Source of the DNA: Microbacterium halimionae
Lineage (GTDB): Bacteria; Actinomycetota; Actinomycetes; Actinomycetales; Microbacteriaceae
Direction: 5' to 3'
Assembly (NCBI RefSeq): GCF_011761265.1
Contig: NZ_JAAOZB010000001.1
Span: forward strand, 1,054,001 to 1,118,000
Length of the DNA stretch: 64,000 bases
Positions 3,738 through 9,071 of the stretch are shown one piece after another. The notes under the pieces were generated by a model, which saw nothing but the letters and a program-made list of their open reading frames with translations, did no database searches and was not told the DNA's origin. Both the position numbers and the translations under genes were made by a program. Every line of letters begins with the position of its first letter. The first letter of the stretch is position 1.

Positions 3738-4835
3738 TTACTGCACCACGTTCGTCGTCAACTCGACCGCGCTTTCAGGCCACCATGCTCCCGCGACTGG
3801 ACCGCCGTTGCACTCGCCGTCGCTTTCCCCCGGGGGCTTCACCCAGAGATTTGTGTCGACGACGTCGTCACCGTAGGCGCCGCCGGCAGCTCCGATCAGC
3901 TGCCCTGACGGATTGCACCAATCCGATTCGGCCTGATCCGCGCCGTTTCTGGATGTGTCAACGATGGCGTGGCTACCGCCGAGCGCATCCGAGATCTGGT
4001 GCGCATATTCGAACTCAGCGTAGGTGGGCTGATAGTTGGACACGTTCGTTGCAAAACCGCGGATAGCGTCAGAAACGTCGACCTGCTGGATGAGGCTTGC
4101 CATTTCGGAGGCGGGGAGCCAATTTGAGTGTCCGCCGTCGAGGTAGATCCACGTGTTTGTTCCAGCGAGCCGATCGACGGCGTCGTGGAGCTGCGTCATC
4201 CGTGCATTGACGTTGTCGCACTGCGGAGCGAGAGCCAAGCTGTCGGGCTCAAGGATGATGATCTTCTGAATGTCTGCTGCGCCAGCACTCGAGAGCGCGG
4301 AACCGATTTCAGTTGTCCACGTGTCGTAGTCGGCATCGTCGAGTCCACCCGCGGAGTATTGCCCGCAGTCGCGCTCGGGGAGTCCGTAGATGACCACGGC
4401 AAGCGCTGCGTCTTGATCACGTGCTTCGTTGGCCAGATTGAGGACGCGTGCACCGACATCACCGATGGGATCGAGCTCTGGCGTGAGCCAATAAGCGGTG
4501 GGAGCTGCTGCGAGGTACGCCGCGGCGGCGAATTCTTCCGTGCCCTCAGATGCGGACTCTGCCGCGAGGGAAGCTTTTGACTCCGCCGGGGCGACGATGG
4601 TCGTTCCGACCCCGGGAGGCTCTGCGTTCAAGAGGCTGAGTCCTGTGGTCACTGTCCATCCGATCGCGGCGATCACGGCGAGAATAATGACGAGTGCTGC
4701 TGCGACGATACTGATCCACACCCAGCGCGGGAGACTGCGTCGGCGTCGCGACGCGGCGGGTGCAGTGGTCACTGTGAGACTCGATCCGGGGAGGCCGTAA
4801 ACAGGGGAGGCTTTGAGGATAGGATAGCTCCCCAC
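3738..4835 (-). CDS. Glycoside hydrolase family 6 (endoglucanase/cellobiohydrolase type), N-terminally membrane-anchored
   Basis: 365 residues from a GTG start. A basic stretch and one membrane helix (about 37-66) act as signal anchor, leaving the catalytic domain outside. GH6 signatures are clear and in order: YGLPERDCGQYSAGG (150-164), ILEPDSLA (194-201), YLDGGHSNWL (231-240), DTSRNG (293-298) and LWVKPPGESDG (330-340). D156, D198 and D339 correspond to the three key aspartates of fungal and bacterial Cel6 enzymes, so activity on beta-1,4-glucan is plausible. Start uncertain: no strong ribosome site at 4835, and a GTG at residue 22 is an alternative. A single GH6 beside a GT2 synthase resembles the processing glucanases found in cellulose-synthesis loci rather than a scavenging cellulase; that is inference. 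Confidence 0.9.
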   Translation of the reverse strand: MGSYPILKASPVYGLPGSSLTVTTAPAASRRRRSLPRWVWISIVAAALVIILAVIAAIGWTVTTGLSLLNAEPPGVGTTIVAPAESKASLAAESASEGTEEFAAAAYLAAAPTAYWLTPELDPIGDVGARVLNLANEARDQDAALAVVIYGLPERDCGQYSAGGLDDADYDTWTTEIGSALSSAGAADIQKIIILEPDSLALAPQCDNVNARMTQLHDAVDRLAGTNTWIYLDGGHSNWLPASEMASLIQQVDVSDAIRGFATNVSNYQPTYAEFEYAHQISDALGGSHAIVDTSRNGADQAESDWCNPSGQLIGAAGGAYGDDVVDTNLWVKPPGESDGECNGGPVAGAWWPESAVELTTNVVQ

Positions 4836-6459: not shown

Positions 6460-8337
6460 TTACTGCGTGAGTGCCGGGTAGAGCACAGGTGTGGTGCGGG
6501 CGTGGGTTGCCTGCTCGAATGAGTAGGTCAGACCCAACAGCGTGCCCTCGTCGAAGTCGCGCCCGAGGAACTCGAGGTTGACGCCGGCGCCGGTGGTGGT
6601 GGCATCCGCTTCAATCGCCTGGCCCATCGGGACGGTGACCGATGGCATGCCCGTGTTGGGGCTCAAACGCAGGTTGGTGCTCTGGGTGCCATAGGGCGTA
6701 CCGCTCGGGTAGATGAGCGAGTCAAGGTCGTTGTCGTTGAGCAGCGCTGTCACGAGTTCTTTACCCTTGGCGAGCTGGACTGTGTGGGTACCCTCGGCAC
6801 CCGCCCAGTTCTGGTACGTCTCTTCGGTGACCGCTTCGCGGCTCTGGTACGTGCTCTTGCGGGAAATCACGTAGTTGCCGGTTTCAAGGATGCCGGTAAT
6901 CGATCGTGCCGTGACGTTTTCAGCGAGGTGAGTCTCGATGTACGAGGCGAGGTCGTGCTTGAACTCGTTGGTGCTACCGCTGCCCTCGCCCAGCACCGCG
7001 CTGAAGCCTGTCGGGGCTGCGACCTCGACGACAGTGGCTCCCTGTGCTTCGAGGGTTGCCTTCGCCTCAGCGAACAAGCGTGCCGTGGTCCTGTTGCCCC
7101 CGACCATCGACGCGACGTAGCCGATGCGTGCGCCTTCGAGAGCGTTTGAATCGAGGTACTCGGTGTAAGACGCCGGTACGAGCCCTTCTTGTGCGCTCGT
7201 GACGGGGTCTGCCTCATCGACGCCGACAACAGCATCAAGTGCCACAGTCGCGTCGAGGACGCTACGAGCCATGGGGCCACCGGTGTCTTGCGAGAGCGCG
7301 AGCGGAATGATGCCGTCGCGGCTCGTCAGGCCAACGGTGGGACGGATGCCGACGAGCTGGTTGTAGCTGGACGGCACTCGAATCGAGCCACCCGTGTCGG
7401 TGCCGAAACCGATCCCCGCGAGGTTCGCTGAGATCGCGGCCCCAGTGCCGCCCGACGAGCCACCGGCCGTCTTCGAGGTGTTGTAGGGGCTTGCGACCAA
7501 CAGTGTGGAGCCGGGCTGCTGGAAGGATGAGAATTCCGAAGCGAAGCCGTACGCGAATTCGTCGAGGCTTGCCTTGGCGAGGATCACGGCGCCCTCGGCG
7601 CGAAGACCTTCGACCATGGCGGCATCCGAGTCGGTCTGGTTTTCGTTCCAGCAACCACAGCCACCGGTGGTGACCATGTCGATCGTGTCGTAGTTGTCTT
7701 TTACCGCGATCGGCACACCGAGCAGCATGCTCGTCATGCCGTTTGTTGCGCGCTCGGCATCGGCGGCAGCGGCAGCGGTGAGGGCTACATCGCTGACCGT
7801 GATGATGGAGTTCAGCGGACGTTCGCCTTCGGCAACCGCGGTACGGTCATAGGCCGCGATGCGGTCCATGTAGCTCTGCGTGATTTCGACCGACGTCGTG
7901 ACGCCCGCGTTCATAGCTGCCTGCATGTCGATGACGGATGCCTCGATCAGCTCGAAGGGGCCGTCGTCGTAGATCATGCGCTGTGAGAGGGCCGCGATGT
8001 CGGCAACGGTGATGACGCTGTCGGCGTCGGTGTCGATCGCGGCAATGGCTGCCCAACCGGCGACTGTTGACGTTGTGCCGAGAGCGGCAGCGGCGACACT
8101 CAAGTCGTCGGTTGTGACCTGCTCGTCACCGGTGAGGTCAAGCTCCGTGTAGTAGGGCGTGAGGATAGGGGCGGTTGCATCGGGTTCTGCCGCGACGGCC
8201 GGTATAGCGATGAAGCTTGCCGCTACCGTGCCGACGATCGCCAAGCCGGCGAGGGCGCGCCGAGAGGGGGATGTCAACGAAGTTCTCCTGTTCGAAGGAA
8301 GAGTGCTCGAGAGTGGGGTGAGGGGCGTGTTGTTCAT
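6460..8337 (-). CDS. Secreted amidase-signature hydrolase with N-terminal dockerin module
   Basis: 625 residues. A signal peptide ends near residue 50 (AIPAVAA then EPDA). Residues about 63-122 form a type I dockerin-like module: two F-hand repeats, each with a 12-residue calcium loop (D67-T69-D71-Q73-D78 and D102-D104-D106-V108-D113) followed by a Leu/Ile-rich helix. An amidase-signature domain follows from about 135. Its catalytic triad is present: K213 in AVKDN, the cis-Ser pair in GGSSGG (292-297) and nucleophile S318 in GTDTGGSIR. Substrate unknown; the family hydrolyses many amides and esters. The start codon overlaps the stop of the upstream cohesin gene by ATGA, so the two are translationally coupled, and the dockerin very probably binds that cohesin. 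Confidence 0.9.
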   Translation of the reverse strand: MNNTPLTPLSSTLPSNRRTSLTSPSRRALAGLAIVGTVAASFIAIPAVAAEPDATAPILTPYYTELDLTGDEQVTTDDLSVAAAALGTTSTVAGWAAIAAIDTDADSVITVADIAALSQRMIYDDGPFELIEASVIDMQAAMNAGVTTSVEITQSYMDRIAAYDRTAVAEGERPLNSIITVSDVALTAAAAADAERATNGMTSMLLGVPIAVKDNYDTIDMVTTGGCGCWNENQTDSDAAMVEGLRAEGAVILAKASLDEFAYGFASEFSSFQQPGSTLLVASPYNTSKTAGGSSGGTGAAISANLAGIGFGTDTGGSIRVPSSYNQLVGIRPTVGLTSRDGIIPLALSQDTGGPMARSVLDATVALDAVVGVDEADPVTSAQEGLVPASYTEYLDSNALEGARIGYVASMVGGNRTTARLFAEAKATLEAQGATVVEVAAPTGFSAVLGEGSGSTNEFKHDLASYIETHLAENVTARSITGILETGNYVISRKSTYQSREAVTEETYQNWAGAEGTHTVQLAKGKELVTALLNDNDLDSLIYPSGTPYGTQSTNLRLSPNTGMPSVTVPMGQAIEADATTTGAGVNLEFLGRDFDEGTLLGLTYSFEQATHARTTPVLYPALTQ

Positions 8338-9071
8338 TCGGTCACCGCCCGGCGACGGATGAGCAGTACGACTCCAAGAGCGATGACAGCAACGGCGACG
8401 CCGCCGACAACAATCCACGGCATCGCGTCAGCGCCCGTGGTCGCAAGTGGGTCGGCGTCGGAGGCCACGGCGGCCGGAGTTGCACTCACGGTCGGCTCGG
8501 CTTCGGGAGCTGATGCCGAGGGAGCGGGTGTCGCCGAGGGAACGGGAGCTGCTGCGATAGCGACGGTTGTCGCCGCGACGTCGGCGACTGTGACGCTATC
8601 GCTCGTCGAGCTGACAAAGGTTGCGGCGCTGAGCGAGAGGTCAGCGGAAGTCGCGCTCAGGGCCGTGAACTCGAACGACACAAGCGTGAGGTCGGTGTCG
8701 GTCAGCCCGGGCGATGTACCGAGGCGTGTGTAAGTGAATGAGACAGACCCGGTTCCTTCGGTGACGGAAGAGAACCCGCCGTCCGCGAACGTGGCCGAAA
8801 CGTAGTCGAGAGCCGCCGGGTCAAACGTCAGCGTGAGGGTCGAGGCGTAGAGGTCTTCCACGGTGGCAGCCATGATGGTTCCCGTCACAGCGTCGCCGAC
8901 GGTGGCAGATGCAGGCGCGGTAATAGTGATCGTGTCGGTGACGGGTGGAGCGGCGTTGGCCGCGGGTGCCAGGATCAGCGAGGTGCTGATCGCGGCGGCA
9001 AGCGCGAGAACCAGGGCGGCGCCGCGCGCGCGAGCGCGCCGCATTCGTCCTCGGGGCTGTGTTTCGGGCAT
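8334..9071 (-). CDS. Wall-anchored cohesin-domain protein
   Basis: 245 residues. A signal peptide ends near residue 40 (PAANA then APP). Residues 45-172 match the cohesin fold: a start like ITAPASATVGDAVTGTI, then TLTLTFDPAALDYVSATF and LTLVSFEFTAL, the usual order of strands in type I-like cohesins. A low-complexity Ala/Pro/Ser/Thr stretch (175-207) follows, then LATTG at 209-213, one membrane helix and the basic tail RRRAVTE, a sorting signal of the LAxTG type handled by class E sortases. It has only one cohesin, no catalytic domain and no carbohydrate-binding module, so it looks like a minimal docking receptor. The start has AGAGGA upstream. It is the first gene of a coupled pair with the dockerin amidase. 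Confidence 0.88.
   Translation of the reverse strand: MPETQPRGRMRRARARGAALVLALAAAISTSLILAPAANAAPPVTDTITITAPASATVGDAVTGTIMAATVEDLYASTLTLTFDPAALDYVSATFADGGFSSVTEGTGSVSFTYTRLGTSPGLTDTDLTLVSFEFTALSATSADLSLSAATFVSSTSDSVTVADVAATTVAIAAAPVPSATPAPSASAPEAEPTVSATPAAVASDADPLATTGADAMPWIVVGGVAVAVIALGVVLLIRRRAVTE

Follow-up and report, generated by a model that had tools for sequence, protein, structure and literature searches.

A predicted cohesin-dockerin pair that may dock a secreted amidase on a wall-anchored receptor in Microbacteriaceae

The window analysed here is a stretch of 64,000 nucleotides from Microbacterium halimionae (contig NZ_JAAOZB010000001.1, positions 1,054,001 to 1,118,000 of the forward strand). 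Two overlapping genes within it, designated gene A and gene B, raise the question of how a secreted amidase that carries no wall anchor of its own may be kept at the cell surface. An interpretation made from the letters of the DNA only, hereafter the sequence-only reading, had proposed that gene A encodes a wall-anchored cohesin receptor, that gene B encodes an amidase bearing a dockerin, and that the second docks on the first with the help of calcium. This docking interpretation is supported by our analysis. Judging from the modules, their pairing and their anchored relatives, we consider anchoring in trans, by calcium-dependent docking of one amidase on one wall receptor, to be probable (about 0.83).

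The two open reading frames were located on the minus strand where the sequence-only reading had placed them, and the ATGA coupling that it described is present. Gene A consists of a signal peptide and a single cohesin, with an LATTG sorting signal at the C-terminus. In gene B a signal peptide and a 72-residue two-repeat module precede a complete amidase-signature domain, after which the protein ends almost at once. The features are as follows, in coordinates of the window.

8334-9071, minus strand: gene A, predicted wall-anchored cohesin receptor, 245 amino acids (open reading frame; PF00963 above its cut-off)
8952-9071, minus strand: putative signal peptide of gene A, about amino acids 1-40 (basic start, hydrophobic core, AANA-A end; read by eye)
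8568-8927, minus strand: cohesin domain, amino acids 49-168 (PF00963, profile positions 4-133 of 139)
8709-8726, minus strand: RLGTSP motif, amino acids 116-121 (most conserved stretch in 22 cohesins)
8337-8447, minus strand: sorting signal with LATTG (8433-8447), hydrophobic stretch and RRR tail (TIGR01167)
8334-8337, minus strand: ATGA overlap of the gene A stop and the gene B start (sequence)
6460-8337, minus strand: gene B, predicted secreted dockerin-amidase, 625 amino acids, ATG at 8337 (open reading frame; PF01425)
8188-8337, minus strand: putative signal peptide of gene B, about the first 50 amino acids (read from the sequence by eye)
7954-8169, minus strand: putative dockerin module, 72 amino acids (family alignment; PF00404 in orthologues, not in gene B)
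8104-8139, minus strand: predicted calcium loop 1, DLTGDEQVTTDD (sequence; 23-member comparison)
7999-8034, minus strand: predicted calcium loop 2, DTDADSVITVAD (sequence; 23-member comparison)
6535-7887, minus strand: amidase-signature domain (PF01425)

The single cohesin proposed for the upstream gene was confirmed by PF00963, which matched gene A at 31.3 bits (E 2.7e-7; cut-off 24.1), and the 2.94 Mb genome yielded no other cohesin. When the gene A cohesin was searched as a single sequence against solved structures, nothing was significant (best E 0.16); the nearest solved structures of the family cohesin profile were the NagJ modules of Clostridium perfringens (E 2.7e-11). The 15 family cohesins that had been selected by PF00963 itself all match it, which is circular, and one of them (G132) lies below the cut-off at 18.3 bits. 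Among the seven other cohesins, which were found without PF00963 or are sited at a contig end, four score above the cut-off, one scores below it and two have no cohesin match. The cohesins diverge quickly, with a mean identity of 40% versus 67% for the amidases. The RLG-SP core is nonetheless kept: within RLGTSP the L, G and S are invariant in the 22 cohesins, and the R and P are present in at least 90%. The G of this motif was placed opposite Gly89 of the C. thermocellum CipA cohesin in two of three MAFFT alignments and not in the third; this is a hint, and only a hint, that RLGTSP sits on the dockerin-binding face.

In gene B the two predicted calcium-loop repeats are spaced 35 residues apart. 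Both loops were compared over 23 dockerin-amidases, and in every member position 1 is D or E, position 3 is T, D or N, position 5 is D or N and position 12 is D. Over the dockerin module, identity to gene B is 40-68% among the aligned members. PF00404 (Dockerin_1) matches 21 of the 23 at E<=10, namely 13 of the 15 in the first set (best 2.6e-9) and all eight further members (E 8.4e-7 to 0.02), five of which exceed the cut-off of 22.9 bits.

The distribution of the two modules was obtained from a family sample of 299 genomes in 85 genera, taken from a larger group, by a scan whose first pass scores only some candidates. The dockerin profile was built from the first 15 pairs; for the cohesin profile, the 22 cohesins identified by that stage were used. 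PF00963 detects a cohesin in 16 genomes, the dockerin profile gave 23 clear matches, and the cohesin profile returned the 22 known cohesins and no additional clear one. Both modules are present in 22 genomes of 14 genera. They are adjacent in 21 and lie across two contig ends in G155, where the cohesin is on one end, and the amidase together with the sorting-signal tail is on the other. The 23rd dockerin-amidase (G056) is on a contig that starts 156 bases before the dockerin match. No clear cohesin or dockerin match was found alone in the 299 genomes. The expectation that related genomes would hold the same gene pair was thus borne out, cohesin and dockerin-amidase being together in 22 of 22 cohesin genomes and adjoining where the contigs allow. 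Seven dockerin genomes had no PF00963 match in the genome scan. Six of these have an adjacent cohesin (G098, G160, G185, G210, G282 and G298), and three of the six cohesins pass PF00963 when scanned directly, indicating that the first pass of the genome scan is lossy.

Low-scoring candidates from the same scans, two for each profile, were rejected as chance matches. The dockerin matches in G022 (18.5 bits) and G283 (20 bits) cover just positions 28-67 and 8-52 of 72, in proteins that look unrelated. The cohesin match in G059 (19.4 bits) covers 74-126 of 147 in a protein that reads like a CBS-domain membrane protein, and that in G014 (17.3 bits) covers 99-145 of 147 in a protein that reads like a protein kinase.

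Beyond the family, the dockerin profile matched the source genome alone in a phylum sample of 396 genomes, and PF00963 was found there in three others (L060, L061 and L062, all from one genus, g174, of another family, f40), in frames of more than 2,100 residues. Within the source genus the source genome is the one carrier among the six sampled, so the pair is patchy. Residues 170-242 of gene A, comprising the linker and the sorting tail, match three Plantibacter loci; these were rejected as pairs, the amidase and dockerin profiles finding nothing there and the cohesin profile giving just scattered low scores. Six distant amidases, 31% identical, were found on viral contigs. Among 72,556 plasmid records, 15 have a match to gene B, always at less than 60% identity and never starting before residue 112, while the dockerin module spans about residues 58-129 of gene B. 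The source genome has one cohesin and one dockerin-profile match, the latter being gene B. This agrees with the statement of the sequence-only reading that no scaffoldin is present, and differs from a cellulosome, with its multi-cohesin scaffoldin and several dockerin enzymes.

The two genes are as tightly coupled elsewhere as in M. halimionae. The stop and start overlap in all 21 loci in which the cohesin comes first, the source locus included, as ATGA in 18, GTGA in one and TGATG in two. In the 22nd pair (G149; L020 6056-8782) the order is inverted, with the amidase first, and the receptor signal is LSGTG. The pairwise identities of the cohesin and amidase proteins correlate (Spearman 0.65; none of 2000 permutations as high), as expected from joint inheritance. 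Outside the pair, no neighbour cluster (frames of at least 120 amino acids) is shared by more than four of the 14 genera in the 21 loci. In the absence of a widely shared neighbour gene, the two genes appear to be the whole module. One of the two clusters shared by four genera resembles a peptide-transporter ATPase by sequence, and this may be chance. As for the flanking genes of the source locus, the universal stress gene has no match in five genus mates, and the adenosine deaminase is present in one of the five.

The enzyme itself matches PF01425 at 253.7 bits. K214, S295 and S319 (P0001 numbering), the residues of the Ser-Ser-Lys triad of the amidase signature family, are invariant in 15 of 15 aligned members; with the PF01425 match, the invariant Lys and the two Ser place gene B in that family. 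The closest solved relative is the peptide amidase 1m21 (E 5e-69), presumably from Stenotrophomonas maltophilia, and the match spans the amidase domain only. From this nearest solved relative we would guess that the substrate of gene B is a peptide or small-molecule amide.

The comparison of gene B with its relatives bears most directly on the question of surface display. A search with the amidase domain only covered relatives in 289 genomes at E<=1e-60. All full-length relatives at least 45% identical were dockerin-amidases. The next full-length relatives are 37-44% identical, with one partial match at 46%, and the non-dockerin matches number 21 in all (L129-L149). A C-terminal anchor is present in none of the 23 dockerin-amidases, all of which stop four residues or fewer from where the enzyme alignment ends. 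Of the non-dockerin relatives, 20 have a C-terminus that can be read, and all 20 carry such an anchor. Fifteen of the 20 have an LxxTG signal and five have a membrane tail. Fourteen of the former passed an automated rule. L136 was counted by hand: it combines LAATG with a hydrophobic stretch and RMRDRRRR, but the number of basic residues among its final ten was too low for the rule. The five with a membrane tail (L138-L142, one genus) lack LxxTG but show a hydrophobic stretch and RRR at the end. A tree built from the amidase domain, with the dockerin excluded and no outgroup, places the 23 dockerin-amidases together on one side of a branch (100/99 support). On the strength of this split and this branch, the same-chain anchor and the dockerin seem to take each other's place, and the exchange may have happened a single time. 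That the relatives carry wall or membrane anchors of their own is what the docking reading predicts.

Among L129-L149 are the directly anchored amidase-signature enzymes of the same family, 37-44% identical to the docked type. In 18 of the 21 the active-site stretch has a cysteine (such as GTDSCGS); all 23 members of the dockerin clade read G[TS]DTGGS there, with a glycine in place of the cysteine. Three genomes (G021, G026 and G122) each hold one docked-type and one directly anchored amidase, and they offer a natural comparison of the display modes.

The other half of the proposal is the anchoring of the receptor. The LATTG sorting signal that the sequence-only reading had noticed after the cohesin scores 18.4 bits with TIGR01167 (cut-off 15.9), but just 12 with PF00746 (cut-off 20). 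Twenty of the 22 receptors have a C-terminal LxxTG followed by a membrane stretch and a basic tail, and in 16 of the 20 the signal is LAXTG. The other two, both from genus g69 (L034 7862-9457 and L066 7211-8416), have a membrane tail alone, without LxxTG. They are also longer, with an extra unassigned region, and their cohesins are below the Pfam cut-off or unmatched. One sortase is present in the source genome (PF04203), which NCBIfam scores as class E at 228.8 bits against a cut-off of 160. According to an excerpt of PMC5148588, actinobacterial sortases of this class act on LAXTG signals, and the presence of such a sortase fits the signal of gene A. LAXTG, hydrophobic stretch, basic tail and class E sortase are all found, as for a substrate of a class E sortase, and the gene A product may be covalently attached to the wall.

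Taken in order, the proposed events would be these. After export, the gene A product would be linked to the wall through its LATTG by the class E sortase, so that the cohesin is displayed outside. Gene B would be translated next from its overlapping start, and its amidase exported without an anchor of its own. The N-terminal two-loop dockerin, folded with calcium, would then bind the cohesin, and the enzyme would be held at the surface, one per receptor. In this manner the pair may substitute for the same-chain C-terminal anchor of the nearest amidase relatives.

Several results weigh against this proposal. Gene B itself has no PF00404 match at E<=1 or E<=10, and in one member (L063) EF-hand_1 (E 0.012) is slightly ahead of Dockerin_1 (0.02). 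Of the 240 matches of the dockerin profile in the Protein Data Bank (PDB), the 60 listed are all calmodulins or calmodulin fusions, so that sequence alone says "paired EF-hand loops". On the cohesin side, two cohesins (L065 and L066) match no Pfam cohesin at E<=10 and were assigned via the family alignment alone, against which they score 160.5 and 96.4 bits, and an hhalign comparison of the cohesin alignment with the CipA cohesin gave a probability of 1.5% over 35 columns. AlphaFold2 without an alignment gave unusable models of the cohesin (128 amino acids) and the dockerin (78 amino acids), with mean predicted local distance difference test scores of 44.4 and 46.2. In the amidase tree, two anchored rows (L144 and L149) have very long branches, and since the anchor types differ across one branch, their exclusivity may be one event.

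For the dockerin, the profile check came out differently at two levels. The two repeats described by the sequence-only reading are present in gene B and the cohesin of gene A passed the cut-off, whereas the Dockerin_1 match is missing from gene B and present in its orthologous group. The gene B module is taken as a divergent dockerin by orthology, on account of the PF00404 matches of the orthologues and not of its own sequence. The calmodulin matches and the missing PF00404 match would also suit a common EF-hand pair through which calcium stabilises or regulates the amidase, with a cohesin-fold protein that binds a glycan or another protein, the two being co-transcribed and not docked. EF-hand models do score weakly in several members, with EF-hand_5 in one of the first 15 (E 0.21) and weak scores in six of the eight further members. 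We nevertheless regard this explanation as unlikely. Dockerin_1, found in 21 of 23, ranks above every EF-hand model in seven of the eight members scanned individually, and the partner is a cohesin, the known ligand fold, in 22 of 22. An EF-hand pair would also leave unexplained why the dockerin-amidases are those without an anchor.

A second explanation accepts that the modules bind and gives the binding another main role than display on the cell's own wall, for example the capture of amidase shed by kin cells or a soluble complex. Docking in trans would in principle permit such exchange between cells. The receptors speak for the surface, 20 of the 22 having a sorting signal and two a membrane tail; the gene overlap makes it likelier that one cell produces both proteins together, and the amidase relatives are anchored in cis. 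Taken together, these make the alternative role quite improbable. A chance likeness, with neither module a real cohesin or dockerin, could appeal to the low identity and to the weak or missing matches of the source member alone, and it is refuted in the main, to a negligible remainder, by PF00963 above its cut-off, PF00404 in 21 of 23 and the pairing across 14 genera.

The sequence-only reading had also stated that no cellulase is involved. This is true of the operon itself, and not of its neighbourhood, where a protein of glycoside hydrolase family 6 (GH6) is encoded 1.6 kb away at 3738-4835 on the minus strand (PF01341, 184.9 bits). It has an N-terminal membrane stretch and no dockerin, and is possibly a cellulase-type enzyme close to a cohesin gene.

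Non-cellulosomal pairs and sortase-anchored cohesins are already known. The nearest solved relatives of the cohesin profile, the NagJ modules (PDB 2o4e, 2jh2 and 2ozn, the last presumably a complex with a dockerin), are single cohesins outside a cellulosome, and we take NagJ of C. perfringens as a non-cellulosomal case. There the cohesin belongs to the enzyme, the O-GlcNAcase NagJ; in M. halimionae it sits on a receptor of its own, predicted to be anchored, whose amidase is encoded in the same operon. The peptide amidase 1m21 resembles gene B within the amidase domain. The surface-anchored amidases of the family (e.g. G060, G274 and G116) resemble it over the full-length domain, with a signal-peptide-like start in the eight inspected, and differ in having their own C-terminal anchor and no dockerin. 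In the cellulosomes of Ruminococcus, according to an excerpt of PMC11557425, the cohesin receptor is likewise fixed to the wall by sortase; those receptors hold scaffoldins together with many dockerin enzymes for plant fibre, in contrast to the one cohesin and one dockerin of this genome. The main text of PMC11557425 contains neither "Actinobacteri" nor "Actinomyc". Going by its title as cited in PMC2930009, a survey of 2009 reported non-cellulosomal cohesin and dockerin modules in all three domains of life. In the open-licence literature, no such pair was described among the matches listed for cohesin or dockerin with Microbacteriaceae, Actinobacteria sortases, amidase wall anchors and noncellulosomal, and neither "dockerin" nor "cohesin" occurred among the matches listed in open-licence papers on four genera of the family. 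The pair is likely to be new in print.

What would distinguish it is that the docking of one enzyme on one receptor replaces the sortase signal of the enzyme, reversibly and gated by calcium, with a co-translated receptor and without a polysaccharide-degrading partner, as a two-gene unit in one family; from the comparisons above we hold this with fair, not high, confidence. If it is true, cohesin-dockerin docking could simply take the place of sortase anchoring for one enzyme, beyond cellulose degradation and beyond clostridia. The 22 natural pairs, whose cohesins have diverged to the extent given above, would form a set for studying the co-evolution of specificity, and the small monovalent pair may serve as a tool for protein display. 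The anchored and docked sister amidases would allow the benefit of reversible display to be studied.

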